Virus record (IMG/VR): IMGVR_UViG_3300015360_000011
Location: 1-40,433 of that record
Length of the DNA: 40,433 nucleotides
Source: a virus
Direction: 5' to 3' (one strand)
In this document: piece after piece, positions 4,123 through 40,433 of the stretch
Layout of the letters: each line of letters begins with the position of its first letter
How positions within the stretch are numbered: position 1 is the first letter of the stretch
Notes under the pieces: generated by a model
What the model was told of the DNA's origin: nothing
Seen by the model: only the letters and a program-made list of their open reading frames with translations
Databases searched by the model: none
Made by a program: the position numbers and the translations under genes

Positions 4123-4947
4123 TCAAACCCCCATCATAAGCATGGTTGAGGTTGTGCCTGAAGGGAATAAACTTGTTAGGTATCTAACTATTACTATTCC
4201 TAATCCACCGTTGCCCGCATTTCTTGTGCTGTCAGCTCCTCCACCGCCACCTCCACCAGTGTTTGTGCCACCACTTGTTCCTGGTGTTCCAGCTCCATTA
4301 CCACCATTGCCGCCTCCGCCAGTTCCACCAGCTCCAACTCCTCCACCAGCATAACTTCCACCCCCACCACCGCCAGCATAATTGACCGATGAACCAGAAA
4401 TACTAGATGCTGATCCCGCACCTCCACTCTTTCCAGAGTATCCCGTGCCACCAGATCCTACCGCACCCGCACCCCCACCACCGCCAGCTCCACCAAAATC
4501 AGTGTTTTTCCCGCCATTGTTTCCTTGACCACCAGTACCAGCTCCAACAGACCTAGTGTCGCACGCTCCGCCTCCTGATCCGCCAGCACTGGCGTTTCCT
4601 ACGGTATCACTATCTCCACCCCCACCACCAGTAGAAGTGATTGAATCAAAAACAGAGTTTGCACCGTTTAACCCAATCCCACCACCAGCAGGTGCTATCC
4701 CCCCAGCTCCAACAGTTACTGTCTTTCCTCCAATCGTAATTGATAAAGTCCCCGTCCTCATTCCTCCAGCACCACCACCTCCCACGCCCCGACTAGATCC
4801 ACTATAATTACCACCCGATCCACCGCCAGCCACAACTAAATAATCAACATCTATTGCCTTATCTGTCGTAAAAGTTCCACTACTTGTAAAAGTATGGATT
4901 GTATATGATCCAGAGGTTGTTATCGTTCCACCAGTTGGAAGTGCCAT
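4123..4947 (-). CDS. Glycine-rich receptor-binding or adhesin-type virion protein
   Basis: A 274-residue protein. The N-terminal ~45 residues (TTSGSYTIHTFTSSGTFT, then DYLVVAGGGSGG) match the start of the Gly-rich domain found at the tips of many phage fibres and surface proteins. Residues about 46-250 are runs of Gly with Ala/Ser/Asn (GGGGG, GGAGG, GTGG), which in known phage adhesins pack as polyglycine-II helices. The C-terminus (GLGIVIVRYL) closes the domain. It most likely contacts the host surface. Its neighbours are an Ig-like small protein and a repeat fibre protein. The gene is low-complexity, so open frames on the opposite strand (Pro-rich) are artefacts. Confidence 0.8.
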   Translation of the reverse strand: MALPTGGTITTSGSYTIHTFTSSGTFTTDKAIDVDYLVVAGGGSGGNYSGSSRGVGGGGAGGMRTGTLSITIGGKTVTVGAGGIAPAGGGIGLNGANSVFDSITSTGGGGGDSDTVGNASAGGSGGGACDTRSVGAGTGGQGNNGGKNTDFGGAGGGGGAGAVGSGGTGYSGKSGGAGSASSISGSSVNYAGGGGGGSYAGGGVGAGGTGGGGNGGNGAGTPGTSGGTNTGGGGGGGADSTRNAGNGGLGIVIVRYLTSLFPSGTTSTMLMMGV

Positions 4948-9203: not shown

Positions 9204-10271
9204 TTATACTCCCGTAACACCTGTCAGACGACCCAAGGTCTTTGGATTGAATGACGTGAAGTTACCAAGGAGATACAGGTGAGCGACCATACCATATTGG
9301 TTGATCGGATTCATGAAGTCTGTCCATTGGAAACCTGTGTATTTACTCGGAGCATCACTGTAGGTGTTGTCCATGTCAACCTTGCCAAGACTGATCTGTT
9401 TCATGTCTTTGTCAGCAAGTCCATACCACTGGAGGTCTTTTTCGTTGAGCATCCAGATAGTTCCTGATGGAGCCTTCTCATCTGCTACCCAAGAAATGCC
9501 TCTGTAGGTAAGTGCGGCATATCCTTGTGCACCATTTAACTGACCTGCGGACACAACTCCCGCACTGGAACGAGTAACCATTGGTTGACCGTTAGCTTGG
9601 TAGTTGGATCTAACCATTGGAGTCAAGAGTGATTCGTATAGATCCCATTCTCCCTCTCCGGAAACGATAACACTTGGGCGGCGTCTCATAGAAGAACCCG
9701 AGCTCACGTTACTCGTAAGAGTCGCGAGGTTGGTCAGACTGAGATTACCACCAGACGCAGTACGAGTTGATTTAATGGTTGGATAGGTTGTGCGGGAAAG
9801 TCCACCAAGAGTGACAACAGAAGTACCGTCATCATTAAGTGCGTCTAGTCCGATGAAGTCTTTATTTGAGTTTCCTGTTCCGTCGCCGTAAAGCATTTCT
9901 GCGACATCATCAAGTGCGTCTTGCTGAGCGGACTCAGTTTCAACAGCAACGAGGTCGAGGACCTGTGCATCGGTTCGGTTAACCGCCTTTTCCATTCCGG
10001 GAATTGCGATTGGCATTTCATAACCACGAACATCGTAGGTCATAAGTACGCGCGTTTCAACGGTACTGGTTGAGTGAGTGTCAAGACCAGAGAAAGAACC
10101 ACCAAGAGAACTCTTGCCGATTTTTAGTGGTTTGCTCATCTGATGACCGCGCCATTTAGCAGCGTTGCTTAGAAAGCGGAAAGAAATAAAGTTGTCGCTC
10201 AAAAATGTATCAACCGCAGCTGGGATGATTTCATCTTGAGTTATAGTCGTAACCCTGTTAGAAAATTGCAT
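9204..10271 (-). CDS. Major capsid protein (HK97-type fold)
   Basis: A 355-residue protein. QDEIIPAAVDTFLSDNF near the start, the long E-loop-like region (SSLGGSFSGLDTHSTSTVE), AEMLYGDGTGNSNKDF with GLDAL, and the C-terminal FMNPINQYGMVAHLYLLGNF are typical of phage major capsid proteins. Size and order (terminase, portal, small gene, capsid) agree. It is expected to form the icosahedral shell. It has a ribosome site (AAGGGG) and probably its own promoter at 10326-10353, which fits the high copy need. No separate maturation protease is visible nearby. Confidence 0.88.
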   Translation of the reverse strand: MQFSNRVTTITQDEIIPAAVDTFLSDNFISFRFLSNAAKWRGHQMSKPLKIGKSSLGGSFSGLDTHSTSTVETRVLMTYDVRGYEMPIAIPGMEKAVNRTDAQVLDLVAVETESAQQDALDDVAEMLYGDGTGNSNKDFIGLDALNDDGTSVVTLGGLSRTTYPTIKSTRTASGGNLSLTNLATLTSNVSSGSSMRRRPSVIVSGEGEWDLYESLLTPMVRSNYQANGQPMVTRSSAGVVSAGQLNGAQGYAALTYRGISWVADEKAPSGTIWMLNEKDLQWYGLADKDMKQISLGKVDMDNTYSDAPSKYTGFQWTDFMNPINQYGMVAHLYLLGNFTSFNPKTLGRLTGVTGV

Positions 10272-12658: not shown

Positions 12659-12910
12659 TTATAGTACAAAGCGAAAAATAATTTTGCAACGGTGGCAAAG
12701 AATGTCTAAATAGTTCTTTTCAGTGGGGACAGATCCGTCATCCCGAATGTGGGCGGGTTGGCCTTCTAGTTGACAAATAATGTGCCCACAGTTGAAGCAG
12801 CGAAAGCTGCGGGCCTCACCGCTTATGTTTCTCATCATCACTGTTACAATTTCATTATTGCCAGTGTGCTTAGTGGGGACAAGATCATTTTGGACGACTT
12901 TTATTATCAT
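12659..12910 (-). CDS. Com-like zinc-ribbon protein between terminase and portal
   Basis: An 83-residue protein with CFNCGHIICQLEG and CHRCKIIFRF, the two CxxC knuckles of a small zinc ribbon similar in layout to phage Com-like regulators and to zinc ribbons often found beside terminase genes. One zinc is expected to bind between residues ~38 and ~75. The ATG overlaps the terminase stop (ATGA). The role is unknown; Com proteins regulate translation in Mu, but that role should not be assumed here. Confidence 0.8.
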   Translation of the reverse strand: MIIKVVQNDLVPTKHTGNNEIVTVMMRNISGEARSFRCFNCGHIICQLEGQPAHIRDDGSVPTEKNYLDILCHRCKIIFRFVL

Positions 12911-14544
12911 ATGTTTTTCCAGCTACGTCCTCCTGCGGACATGTTACGATCTATTATTTCATCTAGATCTAAAGCCGGCACCGTATTATCATGATTTGAC
13001 ATGAATCCGCCGCGACGCTTCTCGCGATAAACTTCTTCTGTGTCTATGATACCACCAACGTCTATTGTTTGTTCTAATGCGGTACGCCACAATAATAAAG
13101 CGTGACACCAATGATCTGGCTTGCCATCTACCGTCTTCCACTTTGACTTAAATATTCCATTATTGTCCTGCTCGACAGTGCGATACATTTGCATCCAGTG
13201 AAAAATCATTCCCTCCATTTCTGGAGCCGTCAAGTTGAATTTTAAATCACCTGAATTAATCTCCGCAACTAGGAAGTCAAACATCTTAGTTCGATCAGTC
13301 CTGACCATCGACTCAGACGTATCCCAATAAACCATTCCCATCGTCTTTTTATCTGGCTGGTAGTAGTGGAGGAATACCTTGCCGGGATACTTCTGGGCGA
13401 ATGTCCTAGGTACGTTGGGGTAGGGGAGCGCGTCAATCACCATCGAGGCAGAATACTGATTTCGGAGCCTTTCAATCTCTCCCCAATCCTCAGTAACCCC
13501 ATACTTAAACACTCCCATACGATTCCCGATAACATAGTGCTTTTTAATCCCATTGTCCACTCCCATACAGACGTTATTCATAGAGTTGTACCCAGGAGAG
13601 AGACATCTAATAAAGGCTTCTCGGGTTACGGAGCTATCTTTGGTAACGTAGGGCAGGCCTAGGGTAAAGTTGTGGAAAATTGAGGCGTCTCCGAGACTAT
13701 TGGCGATGATGTTACTAGCTGGGATCCAGGGAACGAACAACTGAGAGATCCAGTAGCCAGCAACCTCACGATTTGGGTACTTAGCGATCCACCTACCCTG
13801 CCTTAAATCTTCCCGAGTGAGTTCATTGTGGCATGAGGAACAAATCTTCTGCCTCGTCTCTAAATTGATGTTGTCGGGCCAGATCATATATTGTTCTAGG
13901 CGACAATGACGACATTTAATCATCCAGTGCTTCTGTGTTGACTGTTGAAATAGCATATCTACCCCCCTATTGGGAGTTGAGGGGTTAGAGAACTGCCATT
14001 CCCATCCTAGTTCGGGACGGGTGCGGAGAGAGTCGTCTAGACGGGAGCGATACGTCTCTAAAACCTTAGTATTAGACCGATCATACTCATCTTCAATCAG
14101 AATATTAGCCGAAATAGAAATAGCCTCGGTGTCGTCGTAGGCTCCACGATAATAAATAAACCGAGGACCCATTGGGGTTTTAATTTCCTTGAGGGAAAGA
14201 GAGTCTGTTTCCACAATGTCGCGGATAAAGGGATTGTTCTGAATAATTGGGTTAACTTTGGGAATAACAAAGTCTTTGGACATGTTGCGGGAGGGGAAGG
14301 TATGGATAATGTTGGCACCAGCATAGTAAGCTAGGTGGAATGAGCGAATAATGGCTAGGGTGCTCCAGCCGATTTGTGCACACTTAATGATGGCCTGTCT
14401 AGGAGTGTTGTCTAGGTAGGGCTCGATCATAAATTTATGATCCGAGAACTCCATCTCCTCAGCCGTTTCATTCTTGATTTTATTATTAATACACCAAGCA
14501 ATGGCGTTAAATGACTCAGCTTGTCTTAGGTCTATTTGACTCAT
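12907..14544 (-). CDS. terL: Terminase large subunit (GpA-like packaging ATPase/nuclease)
   Basis: A 545-residue motor that would pump DNA into the head and cut it. The Walker A variant is KCAQIGWST (54-62), Walker B is ANILIEDEYD (147-155), and a zinc-finger insertion has CRHC (211-214) and CSSC (235-238), characteristic of GpA-type terminases. The C-terminal nuclease domain starts at MGVDNGIKKH, with acidic residues in VIDALPYP and a final PDHWCHALLLW. It follows an HNH gene and precedes the portal. The probable small subunit is far away at 23.8-24.4 kb. Confidence 0.93.
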   Translation of the reverse strand: MSQIDLRQAESFNAIAWCINNKIKNETAEEMEFSDHKFMIEPYLDNTPRQAIIKCAQIGWSTLAIIRSFHLAYYAGANIIHTFPSRNMSKDFVIPKVNPIIQNNPFIRDIVETDSLSLKEIKTPMGPRFIYYRGAYDDTEAISISANILIEDEYDRSNTKVLETYRSRLDDSLRTRPELGWEWQFSNPSTPNRGVDMLFQQSTQKHWMIKCRHCRLEQYMIWPDNINLETRQKICSSCHNELTREDLRQGRWIAKYPNREVAGYWISQLFVPWIPASNIIANSLGDASIFHNFTLGLPYVTKDSSVTREAFIRCLSPGYNSMNNVCMGVDNGIKKHYVIGNRMGVFKYGVTEDWGEIERLRNQYSASMVIDALPYPNVPRTFAQKYPGKVFLHYYQPDKKTMGMVYWDTSESMVRTDRTKMFDFLVAEINSGDLKFNLTAPEMEGMIFHWMQMYRTVEQDNNGIFKSKWKTVDGKPDHWCHALLLWRTALEQTIDVGGIIDTEEVYREKRRGGFMSNHDNTVPALDLDEIIDRNMSAGGRSWKNI

Positions 14545-16336: not shown

Positions 16337-16387
16337 TTATATCTTTATTTTTAATGTAAACGGATTTGTTAATTTTGTTTCTGTCAT
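16337..16387 (-). CDS. 16-residue ORF between methyltransferase and next small gene
   Basis: MTETKLTNPFTLKIKI starts by ATGA overlap with the methyltransferase stop, with AGGAG 10 nt upstream. Just after its stop comes the AACCAAAAAGGAG cassette for the next gene. It looks like a gutted gene: a cassette-type start (MTET) followed soon by a cassette-type end. Confidence 0.4.
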   Translation of the reverse strand: MTETKLTNPFTLKIKI

Positions 16388-17610
16388 AAAAGTATCTCCT
16401 GGATATTTGCCATCCTAGCCTCTGCTATCTTGCAGTATTCTGCATCAAGTTCAATTCCTATAAAGTCAAATCCTTCTATTTTACAAGCCTTGCCAGTAGA
16501 GCCACTACCCATGAAGGGGTCAAGACAGATCCCCCCCTTTGGGGTAAACATCCTAACTAGGTATTGCATGAGCTTAGTTGGCTTCATAGTCGGGTGGGTT
16601 GAGCCATCTCTATCTCGCTTTGAAGCCTTCGCTTGATATGTGAAGCTAGCACCTTCTCCTTCTTCGTAAGGGCAAGTCTTAAAGAAGCGTGAGGCACTTC
16701 CTGAGTCCGTATAGCCCTCAACCTCGTTAAATCTTTCATAATTTTTCCCACTCATAGCAATGTTAGGAAGTTCTTTCCTGCTGACATTCTTACCTTGAAC
16801 TGACTTACTATCAGGAAACAACCCTACCACCTCATCACTTCCATCGTGGATAAAGTTTGCAGGGAATCTGCCTTGAGGACGAAACTCATTCAAGTCTCTA
16901 GCCATCAGTCCCTTATTCATAGCTACCCCACCTTTTTCTGCCGATTGACTCTGTTCTCTATCCCATTCTTTTGCGAATGACTCTTTTTCGCTATCGTCTA
17001 CTTCCACCCTCGAACCATCAATATTAATTCCTCCCGTTCCCCACTTCAATACGTTCTCTGCAATAGTGCTTTCAGACAGTGGCTTGCGTGCCATACAAAT
17101 AGGCTCGTGGCTTGGTTTTAGAGCTGTACCCCAGCCTTCGTATGGTGATGAGCCTTTGGTGTCTACAAACTTTTCCTTGAAACCACTACCTTTCCCACCA
17201 CTTCTATCGTTTCCGCTCCAAGCAACGCTTCCTTTTTGAATAGCACCGCCCCTTTCATCTTGCTCTTCCCTCTCATTCCCCTGCAACTTATCCACGCTTT
17301 TTCCTATATTCAAACTTTTTGGGAATCCTGAACCGTATACCCACATAATCTGATCTCGTATCTCAAATCCTGCATCCTCAATGGCAACAGCCATCCGGTG
17401 ATAGGTTCTTGAGCCACCAAATGATAGTAAGTGTCCACCTGGTTTTAGTACTCTGATAGCTTCTTGCCATATCTCAACACTAGGAATCTCATAATCCCAT
17501 TTCTTGCCCATAAACTTCAAGCCGTAGGGGGGATCAGTAACGATACTATCCACGCTATTATCTGGTAGCTTCTTCATTACCTCTAAACAATCACCGTTGT
17601 ATAGTTTCAC
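16384..17610 (-). CDS. Beta-class DNA N6-adenine or N4-cytosine methyltransferase
   Basis: A 408-residue enzyme. DPPY (26-29) lies near the N-terminus (motif IV) and DPFMGSGST near residue 364-372 (motif I) comes after a ~330-residue middle region, the order of the beta class. The middle carries the target-recognition part. It would methylate phage DNA using S-adenosylmethionine, most likely against host restriction. It starts at GTG with GGAGGACTAGCT upstream, a variant of the cassette. No partner nuclease is seen. Base (A or C) cannot be told from DPPY alone. Confidence 0.93.
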   Translation of the reverse strand: MKLYNGDCLEVMKKLPDNSVDSIVTDPPYGLKFMGKKWDYEIPSVEIWQEAIRVLKPGGHLLSFGGSRTYHRMAVAIEDAGFEIRDQIMWVYGSGFPKSLNIGKSVDKLQGNEREEQDERGGAIQKGSVAWSGNDRSGGKGSGFKEKFVDTKGSSPYEGWGTALKPSHEPICMARKPLSESTIAENVLKWGTGGINIDGSRVEVDDSEKESFAKEWDREQSQSAEKGGVAMNKGLMARDLNEFRPQGRFPANFIHDGSDEVVGLFPDSKSVQGKNVSRKELPNIAMSGKNYERFNEVEGYTDSGSASRFFKTCPYEEGEGASFTYQAKASKRDRDGSTHPTMKPTKLMQYLVRMFTPKGGICLDPFMGSGSTGKACKIEGFDFIGIELDAEYCKIAEARMANIQEILL

Positions 17611-24416: not shown

Positions 24417-24582
24417 ATCTCATCCAATTCCATAGCCTAACCAATAAATGGAAAGGCTTCAATATATATAAATCTCTAGATTCATCTAGCTCTTTAACAA
24501 AACCCCACGCGCGCGTAGGACCCTTGAAAGTTACGGTCCTTCCGCCGATCATTAGATTTCTTGCTCTTTTGACTATTATCAT
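24397..24582 (-). CDS. Unknown 61-residue basic protein
   Basis: MIIVKRARNLMIGGRTVTFK with KGPTRAWGFVKELDESRD and a C-terminal amphipathic part (FHLLVRLWNWMRYGK). It is coupled to its upstream neighbour by ATGA and overlaps the next gene by 20 bp. Family unknown. Confidence 0.6.
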   Translation of the reverse strand: MIIVKRARNLMIGGRTVTFKGPTRAWGFVKELDESRDLYILKPFHLLVRLWNWMRYGKTNI

Positions 24583-24866
24583 AGGTCTATTTCTTTCATT
24601 TCAGATTTAGATAGCTTATAACTAGGCATCATTTCTGGGTAATGCTTAAAAAATTCACGATTAGGCTTTCCGTCTGCATATGGTTGTATCATATCAGCAC
24701 CACTGTGGTCTCTTTGCTGTTGTATTCTGTCTAACCTAGAGATGGGTATGTCCTCACTTGGGGAGTAGCCTGGGTCTACGTCTTTATTTTGGCATTCTAG
24801 ACATGGCATTACCCCGTATATTTGGTGTTTTCGTGCCTCGGCTGTTTTACACCTTGGACAATTCAT
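24579..24866 (-). CDS. Zinc-ribbon-like small protein
   Basis: A 95-residue protein. CPRCKTAEARKHQIYGVMPC then LEC gives two Cys pairs (CPRC, CLEC) 16 residues apart, likely one zinc. The rest is polar (SRLDRIQQQRDHSGADM) and ends KLSKSEMKEIDL. Proteins of this plan occur near terminase or replication genes in phages; role unknown. Confidence 0.72.
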   Translation of the reverse strand: MNCPRCKTAEARKHQIYGVMPCLECQNKDVDPGYSPSEDIPISRLDRIQQQRDHSGADMIQPYADGKPNREFFKHYPEMMPSYKLSKSEMKEIDL

Positions 24867-25057: not shown

Positions 25058-25301
25058 TGTTTCTCCTTAATACTCTATCTAATTTATCGGATTTAGCAGC
25101 TTCCATCTGTGCTTCCTTCTTTAGTTCTTCTGCCTCCTCCTCTGGGGTTATCTCGTCTATAATCCCTGGCTCATCCTTGTGAGTTGTAGGAGTCGCGGAG
25201 CTGTCGGGAAATGTAAGCCGGTTATAATCTTTCATGGTCAGCTTAATGCATGACCAGGTCCCGTCTTCCTCCTTTACCATCACGAATTCAGTTTTACCCA
25301 T
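25041..25301 (-). CDS. Unknown 86-residue acidic protein downstream of groEL
   Basis: The start at 25301 (MGKTEFVMVKEEDGTWSC) overlaps the last codons of groEL and has GAGGAC upstream; longer in-frame starts lie inside groEL. EEEAEELKKEAQMEAAKSDK suggests a charged helix. Family unknown. Coupled translation with groEL is likely. Confidence 0.65.
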   Translation of the reverse strand: MGKTEFVMVKEEDGTWSCIKLTMKDYNRLTFPDSSATPTTHKDEPGIIDEITPEEEAEELKKEAQMEAAKSDKLDRVLRRNNDTTH

Positions 25302-26868
25302 TATTGCCGTCCTCATGTGTGGCGATAAGCACGTCAGTTGTAAGGATACTAGTTCCAACACTTATTGCATTTTCTAGGGATAGTCGCACAACCTTTGTTG
25401 GGTCGATTATTCCCTGGTCCCGTAGATTACATATTGAGTTGTCTTGCTGATTATATCCAAGACCAATTACGACGTTTTGTAGCTGGCCGGCCACATCCCG
25501 TGCTTCGCTTTCTGAATTGCCTGCGTTCTCAAGTAGCTTCATTACGGGGCTTGTGAGGACTTTTTTCAGTAGCTTTTCTCCCAAGGTATTCTCCTTCATT
25601 TCTCGACCGATCATAAATAGTGCCATTCCGCCTCCTAGGACTGTTCCTTCCTCCCTTGCAGCAGTTGCGGCACCAATGGCGTCTTTTACGCGTTCAATCT
25701 TCTCCCTCATATCAATCTCAGTTTTTGCGCCTACCTTAATTACCGATACTCCCTTAGTCATTCTAGCTAGTCGTCCTTGTAGCTTTTCTTTCTCGTATAC
25801 CGATTTCTCGCCTGCTATCTGTTTCCTGAGTACTTCGGCGCGTTCCTTAATTAGCTCCTCAGATCCCGCCCCTTGTACGATTACTGATCTCTCTCGTCCA
25901 GCGACAAATGACTTGGAGCGGCCAAGCCATGACTCTGGGTTTGTTATGTCTATGGTAGTTCTATCGGAAAGTACGGTTGCTCCTGTGACTATGGCCATGT
26001 CTGATAGATAGGCTAACTGCTCATTTCCCCCTCCTGGGGCTCTTGTGCTAACACAGTTTAGGTTACCTCGCATCTTATTGGCGACTAGAGTTAAAAGAGC
26101 GTCACCCTGAATGTCCTTTGCGATTACAACCACGTTCTTACTTACTTTAGTGACTCCATTTAGGAGTGTAAGCATTTCGGAGTTGAGAGATAGGCTTTTA
26201 TCAATGATTATATATCTGGGGTCATCAATTACTGCCTCCAGACGATTCTCATTGGTGATAAACCTAGGATCCTGATATCCCCGGGAGTATTCCATACCCT
26301 CTGTGTACTCAACTCGAGTGTCGCCCGTTGTTCCTTCCTCTACAGTTACTAAACCGTCAATCCCGACGTGGTCAACGGCCTCCGCCACTAGTTTTCCAAT
26401 CTCTAAATCAGCACTACTAATTAGAGCCACCTTCTCTATGTCTCTCTTGTCTGTTACTGGTACTGACAACTCTTTAAGTTCTTCTAAGATTGAGGGGAGT
26501 TTTTCATATATTTGTTTTCGTAAGACCATTGGGTTTGATCCCTTGTTAATTAGCTCTAACCCGCCTTTTACTATCTCGTATGCGAGTAGGGTTGAGGTTG
26601 TAGTGCCGTCTCCTGCCTCATCGTTTGTCTTTTGGGCAGCTTGGCGCACCAGCTCGACTCCCATCATCGTGAACTCGTCTAGACTTCCCACCTCCCTAGC
26701 TACGGTAACTCCGTCGTGGACTACGATTGGTATTCCATAGCTGCGCTGTATTGCTACGTTACGCCCCTTGGGCCCGAGGGTTGTGGTTACGGCATTAGCC
26801 AATAACTCGACTCCATTAAATAGTTTTTTTCTTGCTTCATCCTTAAAAGACATTACTCGATATTGCAT
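25294..26868 (-). CDS. groEL: GroEL-type chaperonin
   Basis: A 524-residue group I chaperonin. The equatorial ATP site is intact: GPKGRNVAI, DGVTVAREV (Asp of E. coli D52), NDEAGDGTTTSTLLA (D87) and the catalytic Asp equivalent to D398 in RVKDAIGAATAAREEG, followed by LGGGMAL. The apical groove keeps GY and F of E. coli 199/204, the two Leu of 234/237 and LTLVA for 259-264, but Tyr203 is Arg. The conserved apical loop APGFGDRRKAM is changed to APGGGNEQLAY. The C-terminus ends EDGNNG without GGM repeats. The divergence fits a phage protein paired with the groES gene upstream. It would refold virion or phage proteins. AAGGAGCGCC precedes the ATG. Confidence 0.95.
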   Translation of the reverse strand: MQYRVMSFKDEARKKLFNGVELLANAVTTTLGPKGRNVAIQRSYGIPIVVHDGVTVAREVGSLDEFTMMGVELVRQAAQKTNDEAGDGTTTSTLLAYEIVKGGLELINKGSNPMVLRKQIYEKLPSILEELKELSVPVTDKRDIEKVALISSADLEIGKLVAEAVDHVGIDGLVTVEEGTTGDTRVEYTEGMEYSRGYQDPRFITNENRLEAVIDDPRYIIIDKSLSLNSEMLTLLNGVTKVSKNVVVIAKDIQGDALLTLVANKMRGNLNCVSTRAPGGGNEQLAYLSDMAIVTGATVLSDRTTIDITNPESWLGRSKSFVAGRERSVIVQGAGSEELIKERAEVLRKQIAGEKSVYEKEKLQGRLARMTKGVSVIKVGAKTEIDMREKIERVKDAIGAATAAREEGTVLGGGMALFMIGREMKENTLGEKLLKKVLTSPVMKLLENAGNSESEARDVAGQLQNVVIGLGYNQQDNSICNLRDQGIIDPTKVVRLSLENAISVGTSILTTDVLIATHEDGNNG

Positions 26869-26876
26869 GGCGCTCC

Positions 26877-27107
26877 TTATTTTTTAACTGTTATAGTTTC
26901 TGGCAACATCTCTGGGGTGACAACTCCTGCCATCATGAGGGATTTTTTATTTATAATCCTCTTGCCGTCTGTTCCTGTGACCTGAAAGAAGTCTGAGCCT
27001 GAGAGTAGGCGGTTAGAGACTGTGGCGTATGACTCAAATACTCCAAGGGTCATCTCCCTCTCTAGTCCGATTACTAGAAATGTTTTTGGTGTTTTGCTTA
27101 TTTTCAT
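26877..27107 (-). CDS. Unknown 76-residue protein before groEL
   Basis: MKISKTPKTFLVIGLEREMT, FESYATVSNRLLSGSDFFQV, then KRIINKKSLMMAGVVTPEML. A small beta/alpha protein, family unknown. It has a TTAGGAGCC ribosome site and lies between the membrane proteins and groEL in what looks like one operon. Confidence 0.7.
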   Translation of the reverse strand: MKISKTPKTFLVIGLEREMTLGVFESYATVSNRLLSGSDFFQVTGTDGKRIINKKSLMMAGVVTPEMLPETITVKK

Positions 27108-27122
27108 ATGGCTCCTAAGTAT

Positions 27123-27359
27123 TTAATAATTTGCTATACTGATTACTAGAATGGTCATCGCGATTAACCAGATAGCAGTACGGATGCGGCTATTTGATCT
27201 CTGTAGTGCGCTTATTTTTTTGTTCATCATGTATAAATCCGCCGCTAATTCTACCCTCATGCGAGCTATGAGGATCTTATCAGAGATCACTTTCTTTACA
27301 AATCCACTCTTATTAAATTTTCCGCTTTGGTTTCTCTTTAGGATATATATCTCGCTCAT
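27123..27359 (-). CDS. Small tail-anchored membrane protein
   Basis: A 78-residue protein. The N-terminal ~55 residues are basic and helical (KRNQSGKFNKSGFVKKVISD, RVELAADLYMMNKKI). The C-terminus (IWLIAMTILVISIANY) is one membrane segment. It overlaps its upstream neighbour by ATGA, with GAGGAGG before the ATG. Function unknown. Confidence 0.7.
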   Translation of the reverse strand: MSEIYILKRNQSGKFNKSGFVKKVISDKILIARMRVELAADLYMMNKKISALQRSNSRIRTAIWLIAMTILVISIANY

Positions 27360-27691
27360 TTTGCCTCCTCATACAAATCAATGCATTTACTAGCTGCAAC
27401 AAGAGTAACTTCTTTTAATTCCTTCTTGTCTACTCGGGCATACAGATCCCCTACTTGACTAGCGGTATATTTTTCCTGTACTACCTTTAGCCCACAGTCA
27501 CAAAATTGGAAATTTGCATTCTCTCCAAGACATCCATCTATAAATATTTTTTCTTCTTCTGATGTCCACCTATTTGAGGGGGTTGTGTAAGCTATTGGGG
27601 CTGGGGTCTCCTTGCTCTTTTCACTTAACAGGAAGCTAATTAAAATTATGCTCCCCAAGACGATCAGGGTGTATTTTATAACCTGGTTCAT
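27356..27691 (-). CDS. N-terminally anchored or secreted four-Cys protein
   Basis: A 111-residue protein. VIKYTLIVLGSIILISFLLS is an uncleaved anchor or signal peptide. The outside part has FIDGCLGENANFQFCDCGLK, VVQEKYTASQV and SKCIDLYEE, that is Cys, CxC and Cys in a layout known from small exported bacterial proteins. It may act at the cell surface, for example in superinfection exclusion; that is inference. It is coupled to groES by an ATGA overlap. Confidence 0.72.
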   Translation of the reverse strand: MNQVIKYTLIVLGSIILISFLLSEKSKETPAPIAYTTPSNRWTSEEEKIFIDGCLGENANFQFCDCGLKVVQEKYTASQVGDLYARVDKKELKEVTLVAASKCIDLYEEAK

Positions 27692-27984
27692 ATCTCTCCT
27701 ATTCTACCGACAATGTCGGCATAACCTACGATCGAGTATTCTCGACCGCCAACAATAAAATTAGTTGAACCGTATTTGCGGTATAGTAGGAGGTCCCCCA
27801 CCTCTATACCTCGATCAGTGAATGGATCGAAATGACTGACATCTCCTGTTAACCCTCCATCATCGACAACCCGACCCATTTCCTGTTTCTTTTCGGTTGC
27901 AGCAAACAAGTCTCCTACAGCGGTAATGTCATCTAATTTGACCTGTTCAACTACTACCATGTTACCTGCGGCTTTTATTTTCAT
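27688..27984 (-). CDS. groES: GroES-type co-chaperonin
   Basis: A 98-residue protein starting MKIKAAGNMVVVEQVK. The fold markers are the first strand (NMVVVEQV), the mobile loop (ITAVGDLFAATEKKQ), MGRVVDDGG, GIEVGDLLLYRKYGSTNFIV and the final YADIVGRIGEI. In E. coli the loop tip that docks GroEL is GGIVL; here it reads VGDLF, so it may be tuned to the divergent phage GroEL. TTAGGAGAAAAT precedes the ATG; a longer frame start at 28017 is unlikely. Three small genes separate it from groEL. Confidence 0.88.
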   Translation of the reverse strand: MKIKAAGNMVVVEQVKLDDITAVGDLFAATEKKQEMGRVVDDGGLTGDVSHFDPFTDRGIEVGDLLLYRKYGSTNFIVGGREYSIVGYADIVGRIGEI

Positions 27985-28138
27985 ATTTTCTCCTAAGCGA
28001 CTTGAGCTCTTTGTCAATCGCGTTACATATAAACCTACTTCTACTTACTCCCTGTGATTGGTAAGCAATCATTAGTCTTTCAAGTAGTTCACTATCAACC
28101 CAGATAGTAACAATATTAGAAACCTTCTTTGATTTCAT
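27962..28138 (-). CDS. Ribbon-helix-helix DNA-binding protein
   Basis: A 58-residue protein, MKSKKVSNIVTIWVDSELLE. The pattern is strand NIVTIWV, helix SELLERLMIAYQSQG, turn, helix SRSRFICNAIDKELKSL, then a basic tail (RRKYENKSRR), as in CopG/Arc-type regulators. It overlaps the end of the upstream gene by 23 bp and the start of groES by 23 bp, so it sits directly at the head of the chaperonin genes and may control them. Confidence 0.82.
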   Translation of the reverse strand: MKSKKVSNIVTIWVDSELLERLMIAYQSQGVSRSRFICNAIDKELKSLRRKYENKSRR

Positions 28139-28985
28139 TTACCACCTCTATTGTCTTGTTTGATGTTAATGATCCATCCGGATTGACTTCGTTATCACGA
28201 ATAAATCCTGCAAACATCTCCTTGACTAAGTCTACCGCCTTTTTGAGGTATTCTAGAGTTGCAAGGTTTCTGATGAATGAAGGGTTTCCTTCTTCGTCTT
28301 TGGTAAGCTCGTACTTAATTACACTATTAAATCCCCACTTGGTCTCCACCTTCTGGGTAGAAAGCAATACTTCAAATGCGAACATTGGGGTGTTTTTAGT
28401 ATAGAGCTTGACTTCTTTTCCAAACTGCCACATGAAGTCTAGGCGCGTTCCAGAAACAAACGTGACGAATGGCGTTTGGTTGGCTAGGATCATTCCCCCA
28501 ACTAGCTGTGTGAACTTTAGTTTGAGTGTGCCGTCTTCATTTCTCTTTAGCGTTTCTCCGTCTAATTCTTTTGTGGTTGTATAAAATCCTCTTGAAACTG
28601 CCAACAGGGAACATAGGACAGAGGGGAACTCCTCTTTAGTTGGGGAGTAATACAGTTGACCTGGGGTAGAGAAATTTCCGTTTTGGAGTAAGTTTTTCGA
28701 GTTGGCCTCTGTAATCTTTAGTTGTGGGAGAGCTCCAGAGGATATGTTCTCTGTTCCGACTCCTGCGTTTTCATTAAAGAACATCCTAATGTTTTCTGGG
28801 AGTACCAGGGACTTCATCTCTTTCTCTCGTAGTGCGGTGACCTGAGATTCTTGTTTCCTCTCCCATGGTTCTAGTTCTTTTGCTGGGTCGTTTGCTGGTT
28901 CTGATTTTAACATTTCTCCCGCCTTTCGAAATTTTTTGATAGCTTCTTCCTTCATGGCTTCTTCTAAAGGGTCAAAGCGTTTCAT
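28116..28985 (-). CDS. Possible phage ssDNA-binding or recombination-associated protein
   Basis: A 289-residue protein. The N-terminal ~55 residues are charged helix. From NAGVGTENISSGALPQLKIT through LVGGMILANQTPFVTFVSGT it is beta-rich, and the C-terminus is helical and acidic (VEVVNE-type end). The phrase GxGTENIxxxxLPxLKI is familiar from phage proteins proposed to bind ssDNA and found with recombination nucleases; the upstream neighbour is nuclease-like. Assignment is tentative. It has an AGGAAAAAAC site before the ATG. Confidence 0.6.
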   Translation of the reverse strand: MKRFDPLEEAMKEEAIKKFRKAGEMLKSEPANDPAKELEPWERKQESQVTALREKEMKSLVLPENIRMFFNENAGVGTENISSGALPQLKITEANSKNLLQNGNFSTPGQLYYSPTKEEFPSVLCSLLAVSRGFYTTTKELDGETLKRNEDGTLKLKFTQLVGGMILANQTPFVTFVSGTRLDFMWQFGKEVKLYTKNTPMFAFEVLLSTQKVETKWGFNSVIKYELTKDEEGNPSFIRNLATLEYLKKAVDLVKEMFAGFIRDNEVNPDGSLTSNKTIEVVNEIKEGF

Positions 28986-29038
28986 GTTTTTTCCTAATAT
29001 ATATTAATATGTTCTACTTATGTAGACCTATTAGGATT

Positions 29039-29455
29039 TTATACTATATTTATGGGGATGTCAAGAGAGCTGTTTTTCTCTTGTACGATGTATATGTATC
29101 GCTCTAGGATCCCTTTGTAATTGGGAAAGATATCCCTCATGGCCTCCCTTGTCTTGGGGCATTTGGTAACGTTAAATACTAAAAGACGTTTAGAGGTGGT
29201 TAGATAGTAGGCAACATAGCACTCCTCCTCATCGTGCATCAATGAATAGAGAACTCGTTCCGTCGAAATAAAATACTTGGGATAACTACGTTCTTTGATC
29301 TCCACCGCCAATCTGACAATTACTGTCTTTCCATCACTGTATGAGAATTGATATGGTAGCTCCCCGGTTATTTCGTTCTCAGCTATTGTGAAACCATCAA
29401 ACCCTAGTCCTAGATCGGGTATCTTACTAGCTATTATACTTTGATAAGATGGCAT
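29039..29455 (-). CDS. PD-(D/E)xK nuclease-like protein
   Basis: A 138-residue protein from MPSYQSIIASKIPDLGLGFD. SYSDGKTVIVRLAVEIKERS, then PKYFISTERVLYSLM and CYVAYYLTTSKRLLVFNV follow the core of small PD-(D/E)xK enzymes, with acidic residues in the second strand and ExK in EIKERS. Such phage proteins may act in recombination or DNA breakdown. The ATG at 29455 has TATAAT (29462-29467) 6 nt upstream and no Shine-Dalgarno site. Starts at 29470 or 29479 in the same frame are possible. Confidence 0.55.
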   Translation of the reverse strand: MPSYQSIIASKIPDLGLGFDGFTIAENEITGELPYQFSYSDGKTVIVRLAVEIKERSYPKYFISTERVLYSLMHDEEECYVAYYLTTSKRLLVFNVTKCPKTREAMRDIFPNYKGILERYIYIVQEKNSSLDIPINIV

Positions 29456-33631: not shown

Positions 33632-33901
33632 TTATGAAAGCGTTATACTTTTCCAAGTAGACCCCGTATAGACATATAACTTAAAATCGTCAGTTTGGAA
33701 GTATAGCGCCCCTGCTAGTTCTCCAGTTGTGGGTCTCTCACTTGCAATTCCTGCTCTAATAAATCTTACACCCTCTCCGACATGCCTAGTTTTTATCGTT
33801 CCACTAGGTATCATCGTCTGAGTAATTCTCCCATTTAGGGATCGGTCAACCTCAGATTTAATCATCCCTTCAATAATTATCTCGTCTTTGTCGTCGATCA
33901 T
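33632..33901 (-). CDS. Tail-fibre-end type small protein
   Basis: An 89-residue protein. ERPTTGELAGALYFQTDDF, then LYVYTGSTWKSITLS at the end matches the short beta-type domain that ends many phage tail fibres and appears as stand-alone proteins. The start overlaps the nozzle gene's stop (ATGA); AGGGGAG precedes it. Confidence 0.78.
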   Translation of the reverse strand: MIDDKDEIIIEGMIKSEVDRSLNGRITQTMIPSGTIKTRHVGEGVRFIRAGIASERPTTGELAGALYFQTDDFKLYVYTGSTWKSITLS

Positions 33902-36900
33902 ATTCGGGACTCCCCTGCTAGGTCATCGAACTCCAAGGCTGTGCCGTAGTATTCTGGACTTGTGGTGTTAGTTGTAGCTATGATTGTTGATACCTGGAAC
34001 TCGTTGAACCTATTGTCGTTGTTTGGGAGCTGGGTTCGTAGTTCTTTCTTGTCGGCAGTATTTTCAGTTCCAAGAGGTGTCCAAGAATCATTGCGATCTA
34101 ATTTTATTTCATTTGAGATAGCATCTCCGCTGACTAATTTCTTAAAGTATGAGCGTAGGTAGAATAATAATTTCTCGTTTGAAATCTTGCCCAGATCAGA
34201 AATCAAGGACTCATAGCGTCCGCTAAGGAACGGTGAGTTGTCGGGAGATACCACGTCTATCCCATATGTTGTGTTGTATTGCCACGAGATCATTAGCTCT
34301 TTCCCCACGGGGTAAGTCATGCCGATTCTGAGTCCTGTGGCCTTTTTTATACCAATCGACAGCGGGTAGTCATATGAGAGCGACGGGGGGATAACATCTG
34401 AAATCTGACCGTATGCGTAAACTCCCTGAGAGAAGTCTGCACTATCCGTATTTAATCCCATTCCAAGGTGCACTAGGGACCTCCAGGTACAGGTGGCCTT
34501 GGGGGCTACCTCAATATATTTTTTATCGGTCATTCTAGGCATTCGCTTAATCACCTTTACCTCTCCACCATTAAACTCACAGTAGTCTCCAGAGTATCCA
34601 GCCACAAATCCTAGCGGTTCTCCAGAAATTATAGAGTTTACCGCCCCTTGCTTTACTGGCACGAAATCGTTATAAGTTTTACTAGTCCCGTCCCACATGA
34701 ACAAGAATCCGTAGTCGTAGTCAAAGATATTGTTGCCGAGGGCGATCCCTGCGACTAGGTATCCTCTCCATAGTCCAAGACATCTAATATTAAACCCCGA
34801 CGGTAGCGTTATGGCGTGGGGGTTATATATGGCCCCGTCCCAGGTAGCAATATACCTACCATTTGCGATGGCTAGTTTATTTCCAATCTGTTCACAATGA
34901 TGATAGTCGGAATCGACTAAGAATTGATAGTAAGTGTGGAAGTCTGCCGTCTCTAGATCAGACGCCGTAGTTGTTACCACGGTCCCATCAGCAACTGTCG
35001 AGGTAAGGTGGAAGTGATACGAGGCCCCAATAAGGGGGGTCCACGCTGTAAGGGTAAATTCATAGTCGCCAGTGTTAAGGTTAGCAAGCAATACAGTCGC
35101 CACCGCTACTTCTTTATTTAAGGCGTCATGAATTGTGAGAGTCCAGTTGCCAGTTCCCTTGGCTGCGATGTTTACCTCCAGGGTTTTCTGAGGATCCTTG
35201 GCTGGCACGAATGTTTGCCGATGTGTAGCCGCCTCACTTATCGCGGTAGTTAAAGTATAGGTGTTTCCAGAAGTGTTTAGCTCTTGGTCTAGGTCTCGTC
35301 TTGTAGTTGGAGCCGAGAATGGCACGTCAGTTGTAAATACAGCGGTGGCTACATTAGTAAGCGTGTTTGCTCCAGAAGTTTCATCAGTCAGGGCATTGTC
35401 TAATTGATGATATGCAACTAGGTTTGCAGAACCTCCAGAAGTTTCAATCAGGTTATTGGTAACCTGTTCCCCTGCGGTACGAACATCGCTCCACAGTCGG
35501 ACATCATCAACCTTGGCTGGTAGAAAGTTCTCTGCAGCTCCTGCGGCATTAAAACTAGCCCCGATTGCGTATAGGGCTGTGCTGTTATAAATAGAAGTTA
35601 ATGTGCCAGTAGAGTTTCCGATAGTAACGGCGTCTACGTAGAAAGTTGCCAGGGAGGTCGAGGCTTTCCAGGTAACTCCGAATCTATACCATTGAGATGA
35701 GATTAATCCAGCTGAAATAGTTTTTGTTAGGAATTCCTCATTCGTCCCATTTGAGGATATTGCAAGGGTCATTTGATGGGATGTTGTTGTTACTAATCCT
35801 TGATCATTAATCACGTTGATAGTAGGGGTTGTTGTCCCGGTATATGATGTGTAGTAGTCGAGATTAATACGCCCAGCCCCACCAGCACCTCCCGAGTTAG
35901 TGTTTCCAACTCCACCAGCAGCTCCTGGTGCAGTTATTAGTGCCGATCCAAGAGTGGCTGTTTGAGCCTTAATAAGAATTGATCCTCCAGCTCCGCCTCC
36001 TCCACCAGTTTCCCATGATGTAGCCCCTACTACGCCTCCAGATATTATTGATCCAGTTATGGTTATTGTAGTTCCAGAAATAAATATTATTGCGCCTCCT
36101 GCCCCGCCAGCGTTCCCTGGATCTGGTGCGTGACCACCTCCAACCCTGGCTCCTCCACCTCCTCCTCCCATTAACATGGTAGTTAGGTCAGTAGTTCCCA
36201 CTACCGATCCACCATATCCCCAAGAGCTTGAACCGCCGCCATTGACTCCAGCCACACCATTACCTCCACCTCCTCCTGAGCCCGACTGATAGTCAGATCC
36301 CGCACCACCACCATTGCCGTTAGCTGCTGTTAGCTCATTTGCCCCCAGCCCTGGAGTTCCTTCCCCTTGTAGTGCATTAGTAGTTGCGCCAGCCGTTCCC
36401 CCCCTAAACCCTTTACCAGTTCCACTAATTGTTCCGGTTCCAGTTATGGTTCCACTAGCCACAAACCCAAGTATCCCACCAACTGTTCCATTCCAAGCCT
36501 TGGCGGTTAGGGTAATTCCAGAGTTAATGGTTACGTTTGTATATTGTTTAAATACGAGTACTTGCGCACCAGTTGTGTATGAGTTGGAGAGCACAGCATC
36601 TAGGGTGATTGTTCCAGCAGTATATCCATTAACAGTGCGACGCTCCCACTTACCAGCTCCTGTCCCCTGAGTTTGATGAATCATGATAAGTTGCCCGACT
36701 GCGAAACTAGCATTGGTTGCAGATAAAGTGCTTGCAGCAGCTGTACCTGTACAGGCCGAGTCTATTGGGGTGTCGGTTGTGTTAATTGAAACAGTATATG
36801 CCCCGTCAGAACCGTTTCCAAAATAACCAGAAATACCATTAAGGTAAAAGTTATATGATCTCTGATTACCATTCTTGAGCCATTTAGAGACTAGGGTTTT

Positions 36901-37464
36901 AGTCTCCCCAACTGCTGGGAGAGAGGATAACTTAACAAATATCTCTTGTGAAATATCTGAGGTTTGTGAAAGTGAGGCTGAGTCTGGGGCCGTAGCATAC
37001 TGAGTAGTTCCATTTAGGGTTAGAGAGTGGGTGTTTGTTGGGATTCCACCCTCTGCTCCAAGAAAGTCATCAACAAAGGTTGGGGTGGAGGTGAGGGGAC
37101 CGTAGCGTCCTATTACTTTGTCACTAGGATAATATAAATATCCGTCTTCCCCGTAGTATTTAAGACCATTCCCACTATTGTTGGCTATAGTGCGCAGATT
37201 AGTCCAGGTATGATTATTGGCGTGTTTGTAAAGGTTTCCAGCATTGCCGATTAAATATGTATTCGTTCCCTGCCGGTCACCCGCCATCACCAAATCAACT
37301 ACGACCGAACCTGATTCTTTTACCGTTCGGGGAAGGAGCGTTAACTTATTTGGCTCGGAGCGGTAGTTGACCGATTCGGCCCACAAGAATGTAGACTTAC
37401 CTCCCTCCTTTTCGCTTTCGGAAAGTCCGGAAAACCTTTTAATCTCTAGTGGGATTTTGGCCAT
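33898..37464 (-). CDS. Large tail nozzle-like protein with LamG domain interrupted by a glycine-rich insertion
   Basis: A 1188-residue protein from MAKIPLEIKRFSGLSES (ATG at 37464, right after the adaptor stop; a longer frame start is unlikely). The N-terminal ~140 residues and the C-terminal ~330 (YYQFLVDSDYHHCEQIGNK, IATWDGAIYNPHAI, FLFMWDGTSKTYN) resemble beta-propeller tail-tube/nozzle proteins of short-tailed phages. Between them a LamG/concanavalin-like domain starts at SLTLNGTTQYATAPDSASLS (about 148) and is cut after NFYLN (about 209). A ~340-residue domain with FAVGQLIMIHQTQGTGAG and long Gly runs follows. LamG resumes at NDQGLVTTTSHQMTLAIS (about 552) and ends near 700. It probably forms the tail tip and binds host glycans. 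Confidence 0.78.
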   Translation of the reverse strand: MAKIPLEIKRFSGLSESEKEGGKSTFLWAESVNYRSEPNKLTLLPRTVKESGSVVVDLVMAGDRQGTNTYLIGNAGNLYKHANNHTWTNLRTIANNSGNGLKYYGEDGYLYYPSDKVIGRYGPLTSTPTFVDDFLGAEGGIPTNTHSLTLNGTTQYATAPDSASLSQTSDISQEIFVKLSSLPAVGETKTLVSKWLKNGNQRSYNFYLNGISGYFGNGSDGAYTVSINTTDTPIDSACTGTAAASTLSATNASFAVGQLIMIHQTQGTGAGKWERRTVNGYTAGTITLDAVLSNSYTTGAQVLVFKQYTNVTINSGITLTAKAWNGTVGGILGFVASGTITGTGTISGTGKGFRGGTAGATTNALQGEGTPGLGANELTAANGNGGGAGSDYQSGSGGGGGNGVAGVNGGGSSSWGYGGSVVGTTDLTTMLMGGGGGGARVGGGHAPDPGNAGGAGGAIIFISGTTITITGSIISGGVVGATSWETGGGGGAGGSILIKAQTATLGSALITAPGAAGGVGNTNSGGAGGAGRINLDYYTSYTGTTTPTINVINDQGLVTTTSHQMTLAISSNGTNEEFLTKTISAGLISSQWYRFGVTWKASTSLATFYVDAVTIGNSTGTLTSIYNSTALYAIGASFNAAGAAENFLPAKVDDVRLWSDVRTAGEQVTNNLIETSGGSANLVAYHQLDNALTDETSGANTLTNVATAVFTTDVPFSAPTTRRDLDQELNTSGNTYTLTTAISEAATHRQTFVPAKDPQKTLEVNIAAKGTGNWTLTIHDALNKEVAVATVLLANLNTGDYEFTLTAWTPLIGASYHFHLTSTVADGTVVTTTASDLETADFHTYYQFLVDSDYHHCEQIGNKLAIANGRYIATWDGAIYNPHAITLPSGFNIRCLGLWRGYLVAGIALGNNIFDYDYGFLFMWDGTSKTYNDFVPVKQGAVNSIISGEPLGFVAGYSGDYCEFNGGEVKVIKRMPRMTDKKYIEVAPKATCTWRSLVHLGMGLNTDSADFSQGVYAYGQISDVIPPSLSYDYPLSIGIKKATGLRIGMTYPVGKELMISWQYNTTYGIDVVSPDNSPFLSGRYESLISDLGKISNEKLLFYLRSYFKKLVSGDAISNEIKLDRNDSWTPLGTENTADKKELRTQLPNNDNRFNEFQVSTIIATTNTTSPEYYGTALEFDDLAGESRI

Positions 37465-37465
37465 A

Positions 37466-38383
37466 TCAGGTAAGCCCTGTTGGATAAAAATTAGGATTAA
37501 TGGATAGACTATTTTCGTCTGTTCTACCATTAATTATTATCGAGCTTCCAGAGGTTGAATACTCCATTTGAGCGTCAATTAATCCTTCCTTGAATTGTTT
37601 CTCATACATAGAAGCTAGGAATTTATCGCGCCTATAGAATGCAAAGTATTGCCAGAGCGCGTATTGTACTGGCAGTTCGTGAGTAGACTCAGGGAGCCTA
37701 CAGACCTCTCCGATGGTATATGCAGATGTTCCAGCGGCGATTGAGGTTCCTACATATGGGGTTTCTAGGGTAATGGTTGTTGCTGTTGGGGCGGCAGTTA
37801 TGTAATGCCACTCGGAGTCGTCGTTAATCTTGAATATCCTATTAACCATTTGAGATGTCCAGGTTGATCCAGAACCAACTACCGCCTTAGTGGCAGTAGC
37901 TAGGGTGGTGATTGTGCCAGTAGTATAGTCCGCTTGAGAGAGGTCTTTGGAGTTGCCAAAATACGAGACGGTAACGAGGTTCGCACTAGATGGAATGGGC
38001 CAGAGATAAATAGTCCTACCCTTGATGTGGGCGTATTTAAGATAATTTGAGGTTGACTGAGTTGTGGTCGCGTTTATCTGCCCCCACCATTTTGGGTCCT
38101 CTATTAAATTATCCATATGATGCTGAGTTGTACCCACGGTAACGTACATGCTATTTAGAGAAATAAATCCACGTGGTAAAACATATCCCTGGTTATTGGT
38201 CCCAGAAACCGCGTCCGTGATGGTTGTAAAAGTTTTTGTTTGTTCGTTTACAAAAATATCTAGGGATCGCTCGATTTTATGAACACCAATATTAATTAGG
38301 TTTTTGAAAAGAATAAGATTAGTTGTGTTGAAATCCGATGACAATGATTGTACGAGCTCGTATTGATTTTGATAACTTAGCAC
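37466..38383 (-). CDS. Head-tail adaptor (tail tubular A-like)
   Basis: A 305-residue protein. The N-terminal helices (YELVQSLSSDFNTTNL, LINIGVHKIERSLDIF) and the C-terminal ELPVQYALWQYFAFYRRDKF are typical of adaptor proteins that dock under the portal in short-tailed phages. A beta-domain (GSGSTWTSQMVNRIFKINDD, WHYITAA, TITLETPYVG) is inserted, as known from many such proteins. The best start is the GTG at 38383 behind GGAGGG; a TTG at 38401 would add six residues. Next gene is the nozzle-like protein, the usual order. Confidence 0.72.
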   Translation of the reverse strand: MLSYQNQYELVQSLSSDFNTTNLILFKNLINIGVHKIERSLDIFVNEQTKTFTTITDAVSGTNNQGYVLPRGFISLNSMYVTVGTTQHHMDNLIEDPKWWGQINATTTQSTSNYLKYAHIKGRTIYLWPIPSSANLVTVSYFGNSKDLSQADYTTGTITTLATATKAVVGSGSTWTSQMVNRIFKINDDSEWHYITAAPTATTITLETPYVGTSIAAGTSAYTIGEVCRLPESTHELPVQYALWQYFAFYRRDKFLASMYEKQFKEGLIDAQMEYSTSGSSIIINGRTDENSLSINPNFYPTGLT

Positions 38384-38439
38384 ACCAAGCCCTCCAAACA
38401 AGTATTGGGCTGATGTGCCTCATGCTAACAATTATACAC

Positions 38440-40156: not shown

Positions 40157-40433
40157 TTACTCCTTTTTGGTTAATGGTTTGTCTATAAATGAGAGAATGT
40201 GAGCTACTACATCGACATTAAAAGCGTTGCCTAACATTTTGTACTGCTGAGAATTGCTTACCCCATCGCAATATCCATCAGGAAGTCCCTGAAGTCGCAT
40301 ACACTCTGTAGGGGTTAGCTTGCGGATTTGGGAGTTTTCTACAAGATGATTATTATGTTCCCAAGCAGAACTTGAAAGTGTTGGCGTTTTTCCGTCTAGT
40401 GCTTTTATTCCACCTTTATTATATCCCCGAGAA
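40157..40433 (-). CDS. DNA (cytosine-5) methyltransferase, C-terminal part (joins 1..861)
   Basis: C-terminal portion of the enzyme that starts at 861; the last 58 bases are the duplicated overlap. It contains RKLTPTECMRLQGLPDGYCD (motif IX region) and QQYKMLGNAFNVDVVAHIL (motif X), then the tail SFIDKPLTKKE. The tail codons hold 24 bases shared exactly with the 3' end of the unrelated gene at 19788 and then the AAAAAGGAG ribosome site of the next gene. Total length of the joined protein is 359 residues. Confidence 0.94.
   Translation of the reverse strand, partial: SRGYNKGGIKALDGKTPTLSSSAWEHNNHLVENSQIRKLTPTECMRLQGLPDGYCDGVSNSQQYKMLGNAFNVDVVAHILSFIDKPLTKKE
40172..40195 (-). repeat. 24-bp exact repeat at a gene 3' end (pair of 19806..19829)
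   Basis: Identical to 19806-19829, both coding SFIDKPL in the same frame near the stop codon of otherwise unrelated proteins. Confidence 0.95.
40376..40433. repeat. Terminal direct repeat (copy 2), identical to 1..58
   Basis: See copy 1. Removing one copy leaves a circular unit of 40,375 bp with an intact methyltransferase gene over the junction. Confidence 0.95.

Follow-up and report, generated by a model that had tools for sequence, protein, structure and literature searches.

A GroEL/GroES pair that is probably ancestral in a lineage of tailed phages with genomes of 38–46 kb

Introduction

Why should a phage with a genome of about 40 kb carry genes for both a chaperonin and its lid? This question is raised by a stretch of viral DNA of 40,433 nt (IMG/VR record IMGVR_UViG_3300015360_000011, positions 1–40,433; the whole stretch is referred to as the window), in which an earlier reading of the sequence (the original prediction) had pointed out a GroEL and a GroES gene, and had regarded a full pair as a large investment for a phage of this size. 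GroEL-bearing viruses likely have genomes above 70 kb according to the virioplankton survey of Marine et al. 2017, as far as this is cited in PMC9611531. Our analysis indicates that the pair is probably a working group I chaperonin with its lid, ancestral in tailed phages of 38–46 kb and serving to fold phage proteins: this reading is based on the intact genes, the ATP-site residues, the group I fold, the descent of the phage GroELs as one lineage and their co-inheritance with capsid, portal and terminase.

Sequence and Predicted Structure of the Two Subunits

Both genes are encoded on the minus strand of the window, and neither open reading frame (ORF) arises by chance:

27688–27984, minus strand: GroES (co-chaperonin), 98 aa; PF00166, AlphaFold2 model with Cpn10 fold
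25294–26868, minus strand: GroEL (group I chaperonin), 524 aa; PF00118, PHROG 5725, NF000592, AlphaFold2 model

The GroEL gene exhibits a Shine-Dalgarno sequence, AAGGAG, 4 nt ahead of its ATG (an alternative ATG at 26850 would afford a protein of 518 aa), and its product matches the Pfam Cpn60 family PF00118 over the whole length with 149.7 bits (cut-off 34.3), PHROG 5725 with 389.5 bits and the NCBIfam model NF000592 “chaperonin GroEL” with a score of 516.6 (cut-off 397). The protein remains below the threshold of the equivalog model TIGR02348 (506.3 vs. a cut-off of 582.1), so that it belongs to the broad family but cannot on this basis be equated with bacterial GroEL. The AlphaFold2 model (pLDDT 81) finds its best structural matches among group I chaperonins, with a TM score of 0.83 to the GroES-bound shape of GroEL against about 0.55 to unbound forms, and the sequence alignment contains no large apical insert, i.e. 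the apical protrusion of group II is absent. As modelled, GroEL has the three-domain fold of a group I chaperonin.

With residue numbering following E. coli-type GroEL (the Salmonella row of the alignment), the claim that both subunits are present with an intact ATP site is borne out: the GDGTTT motif is found, and G32, D52, D87, T89–T91, I150, S151, D398, G414, G415 and D495 are all retained, as is the R197–E386 pair. The departures from usual GroEL that had been pointed out are equally real, although two of them characterise all the related phage GroELs described below rather than this protein: the FGDRRKA loop reads GGNEQLA in the window and is highly variable over the whole phage group, and the GGM tail is absent from the window GroEL and from every group member. 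The replacement of Tyr203 by Arg, in contrast, is found within this group in the window phage only. A further exchange, Lys51 to His (HDGVT for KDGVT), is common to nearly all members and looks like a signature of the phage GroEL group. A single-ring architecture was also considered, since inter-ring positions differ, but the loose alignment in this region provides no basis for it.

The GroES gene carries AGGAG 5 nt ahead of its ATG. Its product scores 31.6 bits against the Pfam Cpn10 family PF00166 (cut-off 21.1), and the AlphaFold2 model (pLDDT 80) matches Cpn10 crystal structures with an E-value of 1.4e-6; the protein is a divergent GroES. Its loop was said to read VGDLF instead of GGIVL, and the alignment agrees: AVGDLFAA is found where bacteria have GGIVL, with D-L-F as the tripeptide in register with the relatives, many of which have a hydrophobic residue first where the window has Asp. 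The mobile-loop block of the model has a mean confidence of 56, which is low as a flexible loop would give.

Descent of the Pair and Co-inheritance with Virion Genes

A maximum likelihood tree of GroEL was calculated with 51 rows, the bacterial ones being taken from Pseudomonadota, Bacillota and Actinomycetota only, with none from the candidate phyla radiation (CPR). The 30 rows from phages that share the virion genes of the window are set apart from all others by a branch supported at 96/97 (98 after thinning of long branches, with a mixture model), and all sampled bacterial GroELs as well as those of other phages fall outside this group. Clustering with phage chaperonins, as opposed to nesting within a single bacterial genus, is what the original prediction had expected of such a tree, and what was found. 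Identity drops to 23% inside the group, whereas the minimum among seven sampled bacterial or plasmid GroELs is 51%, which indicates that the group is either old or fast-evolving.

The window is the genome of a tailed phage, as it encodes a terminase, a portal, a capsid protein and an SU10-type adaptor:

12907–14544, minus strand: terminase large subunit; phrog_675, E 2e-85; PF05876
10627–12651, minus strand: portal protein; phrog_156, E 5.4e-14
9204–10271, minus strand: major capsid protein; phrog_9953, E 9.3e-46
37466–38401, minus strand: SU10-type adaptor protein; PF24175, E 3.4e-14
33898–37530, minus strand: conserved 1210-aa protein of unknown function, kept in the lineage; no family match

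Distances in the GroEL tree correlate with those of the capsid (rho 0.82), portal (0.73), terminase (0.93), 1210-aa protein (0.82) and GroES (0.75), values that were not reached in any of 1000 permutations. Such correlations show joint inheritance and not physical interaction, since shared descent of the genomes suffices to produce them. The same gene neighbourhood is seen in about 25 contigs, with portal, capsid, 242-aa protein, adaptor, 1210-aa protein, 317-aa protein, GroES, GroEL, a CxxC protein and terminase as the recurrent order; in contigs G027 and G033 GroEL lies on the other strand. In each of the 26 contigs in which the two genes could be ordered, GroES is located upstream of GroEL in the same orientation (in G014 the arrangement wraps around the end of the contig); the spacing is usually no more than 0.5 kb, but about 10 kb in G013 and G016.

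Neither IMG/VR nor GTDB genomes gave a close copy when the window GroEL was used as a single-sequence query. A search with an alignment of three GroEL sequences recovered 14 IMG/VR contigs with GroELs of 46–58% identity, 13 of which carry a terminase of the window type (47–60% identity) and 13 a GroES; a full-length capsid protein (49–68%) is present in all 11 contigs that are more than short fragments. For G014, identity to the window GroEL is 47% over the full protein, a figure of 67% applying to a fragment only. GroES genes of relatives were located by profile, tblastn with GroES against annotated phages having given no matches. Relatives were also chosen independently of GroEL, using a capsid scan (best 80 of 271) and a terminase scan (best 80): among the different contigs that were found in these best-scoring matches and measure 34 kb or more, 21 of 24 encode GroEL, normally with GroES upstream. 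The genes are hence not absent from related phages, which the original prediction had named as a possible objection, and its view of a full pair in a 40-kb phage needs to be amended: both subunits are there, but the case is not unique, as most relatives of 38–46 kb have the pair.

An identical 58-base repeat at both ends indicates that the genome in the window is complete, the unit being about 40,375 bp long:

1–58, no strand: terminal direct repeat, copy 1; exact 58-nt match to the other end
40376–40433, no strand: terminal direct repeat, copy 2; exact 58-nt match to copy 1

Terminal repeats are likewise present in G007 (45.3 kb), G009 (40.9 kb), G014 (38.0 kb), G025 (39.9 kb) and G032 (39.8 kb), and two records of the lineage are circular (MW202566, 39.0 kb; MG269973, 38.8 kb), so that the eight members with evidence of completeness span 38–45 kb. 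In the capsid tree, phages without GroEL occupy at least two branches, one being G019 (a 31-kb fragment) and the other the G020–G023 set beside MW202566, and these branches read as losses. Taken from the trees and gene order, the chaperonin pair appears to be an old inherited part of the phage lineage rather than something lately acquired from a host.

Proposed Function of the Pair

In the scheme that we favour, the common ancestor of these 38–46 kb phages would already have possessed the pair, and GroES and GroEL would be read from one minus-strand gene run together with small phage genes. GroEL would form heptameric rings and use ATP, the GroES of the phage itself would cap the phage GroEL, and the resulting GroES-capped folding cage would act on phage proteins, the likeliest clients being virion proteins that are produced in large amounts. 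A need for such a pair may arise where the host chaperonin is scarce or unsuited to phage proteins, the host perhaps being of the Saccharibacteria/CPR type. That GroEL and GroES are matched to each other, a “private pair” as the original prediction put it, is plausible, and a contact between Asp of the GroES loop and Arg203 of GroEL is an attractive idea drawn from a single case: as Arg203 occurs only once in the group, covariation between loop and groove is a test without power.

Several observations weigh against this scheme. The window GroES lies far under the cut-offs of the NCBIfam GroES models (best score 35.9 vs. 96). Contigs G020, G021 and G023 (40–43 kb) are without GroEL both by profile and by tblastn, and their capsids are 48–53% identical to that of the window; a phage GroEL is thus no strict requirement for the capsid family of the window, since these sisters manage with capsids that are about half identical. 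The missing gene is not accounted for by a break in the assembly, as the interval from the 317-aa gene to the portal, in which GroEL would be expected, is contiguous in all three contigs (coordinates read). The CPR-type host, finally, is possible because MG269973, recorded as a phage of a TM7 host, belongs to the lineage, and this is one relative. The three contigs G020 (L107), G021 (L108) and G023 (L116) are also without GroES by profile, and their terminase is unmatched by that of the window.

Because the capsid family can do without phage GroEL, the clients may be other proteins, or the need for the pair may depend on the host. The pair could serve a non-virion role, stabilising proteins of replication or lysis, or interfering with a defence of the host or, via mixed rings, with its GroEL. 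We regard this as unlikely: whilst the operon context consists of small unknown genes instead of virion genes, and relatives with similar capsids live without the pair, nothing supports such a role directly, and the retained catalytic residues would be needless for a decoy.

Improbable, too, is that the phage GroEL acts without its GroES, as a holdase or as a self-closing cage, with GroES serving the host GroEL in the manner of T4, which supplies the lid gp31 only and uses the GroEL of its host (PMC9598537). The docking positions are certainly unusual (Arg203, the D-L-F loop), the two genes lie far apart in G013 and G016, and the jumbo-phage chaperonins EL, OBP and AR9 work without a co-chaperonin (PMC9598537; PMC7185714). 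However, GroES accompanies GroEL throughout the lineage and the divergences of the two follow each other (rho 0.75), most groove positions of GroEL retain hydrophobic residues, and the window protein is no closer to EL than to bacterial GroEL.

Recent capture from a bacterial host, or host DNA contaminating the assembly, is largely refuted and now highly improbable: GroEL is a universal bacterial gene, the collection of annotated phages does include bacterial GroEL contigs and the tree held no bacterial GroELs from CPR, but the best sampled bacterial identity is about 43% as compared to 46–57% for the nearer kin phages, and the support of the GroEL group, the common gene neighbourhood and the tracking of capsid divergence by GroEL divergence all argue against it.

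With the ancestral folding pair retained as the probable reading, the host deserves separate consideration. Among annotated phage records, a clearly related capsid is seen in two only, MW202566 and MG269973, and the latter is the only relative with a named host, given in the record as candidate division TM7, now Saccharimonadota. In MG269973 a GroES-like ORF immediately precedes the gene for a Cpn60, and this phage is paired with contig G033 in the GroEL tree as well as in the capsid tree. A capsid scan of GTDB genomes gave no matches, and hence neither a prophage nor a host bin. A more far-reaching version, in which a widespread lineage of about 40 kb lives on ultra-small CPR (Patescibacteria) hosts and its ancestral private pair, with Asp facing Arg203, folds virion proteins independently of host GroE, is for the present a tentative proposal that we would not expect to hold in full.

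Comparison with Known Phage Chaperonins

Phage GroEL/GroES pairs as such are already known, and two members of the lineage are annotated in GenBank. MW202566.1 (Caudoviricetes, “Myoviridae sp. cthkR962”, from Manatee Spring water, 38,956 bp, circular) has a related capsid (about 40%), portal and adaptor, and its GroES gene, annotated as mhsp60, lies directly upstream of groEL as in the order of the lineage; its GroEL, however, is just 36% identical to that of the window, and the window terminase does not match its terminase. In case of MG269973.1 (TM7 phage DolZOral124_53_65, 38,840 bp, circular), the capsid is 36.5% identical and the Cpn60 falls within the same GroEL group, but this protein is only about 26% identical and sits on a long branch, and its GroES is not annotated as such. 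The Flavobacterium phages elemo (60 kb) and immuto (160 kb) and the Cellulophaga phage phi38:1 (72.5 kb) likewise encode a phage GroEL, with an annotated GroES beside it, yet differ in their larger genomes, in GroELs that lie outside the group and in that no related capsid was found; in elemo GroES follows GroEL. EL, OBP and AR9 encode ATP-using relatives of GroEL, as does the window, whereas the EL chaperonin is 22% identical and distant in the tree (OBP and AR9 were not among its rows); a common descent with the EL chaperonin that leaves bacterial GroEL outside was not borne out in this 51-row tree. T4 gp31 shares the co-chaperonin fold with the window GroES, the model of which matches 1g31 with an E-value of 6e-4.

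A small-genome lineage with an ancestral pair was not described in the literature searched, and a 2025 paper on phages of groundwater Patescibacteriota makes no mention of chaperonins (PMC12911398). The generalisation to viruses above 70 kb is broken by this coherent lineage of 38–46 kb genomes, in which GroEL and GroES take up about 5% of the genome and have been retained through deep divergence, with a few sisters lacking them. The occurrence of the same capsid family with and without the chaperonin provides a natural comparison for the role of phage chaperonins; if a Saccharibacteria host should hold beyond one member, this would suggest that phages of ultra-small bacteria are limited by protein folding as a resource. 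Three entries of the phage collection, AFYI01000007, AGRM01000005 and OR846590, are bacterial or probably bacterial contigs with an ordinary host GroEL, and such misfiled contigs are a trap for claims on phage chaperonins.

Organisation of the Locus and Other Genes of the Window

In the window itself the GroES and GroEL genes are not adjacent, being separated by 819 nt with three small ORFs; further genes of the neighbourhood are as follows:

26877–27107, 27123–27359 and 27356–27691, minus strand: the three small ORFs that separate GroES from GroEL, unknown; no family match
28116–28985, minus strand: 289-aa unknown protein, upstream in the same minus-strand gene run; no family match
29036–29064, minus strand: promoter-like site TTGACA-17-TAAAAT before the 289-aa gene; 11/12 consensus match only
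24579–24866, minus strand: protein of 95 aa, a conserved neighbour located between GroEL and terminase; N-terminal CxxC

Single promoter-like sites prove little, since the scan found 19 where 14.3 were expected.

Elsewhere on the minus strand, 4123–4947 encodes a repetitive glycine-rich protein (phrog_2295, of unknown function) at a sharp excursion of the GC skew (-0.40). The gene at 16384–17610 (minus strand) encodes a DNA methyltransferase, in which the match to phrog_67 covers residues 2–405 while taking in no more than about 224 profile positions, which points to a large insertion within the enzyme. Between 18731 and 19791 (minus strand), five small paralogous genes of 53–89 aa follow in succession, each product starting with MKLTK or MTLTK and closing with a lysine-rich stretch and then EEV; they are made of 11-residue amphipathic repeats such as AREARDAIVDPA, and have relatives at 41% in contig G002.

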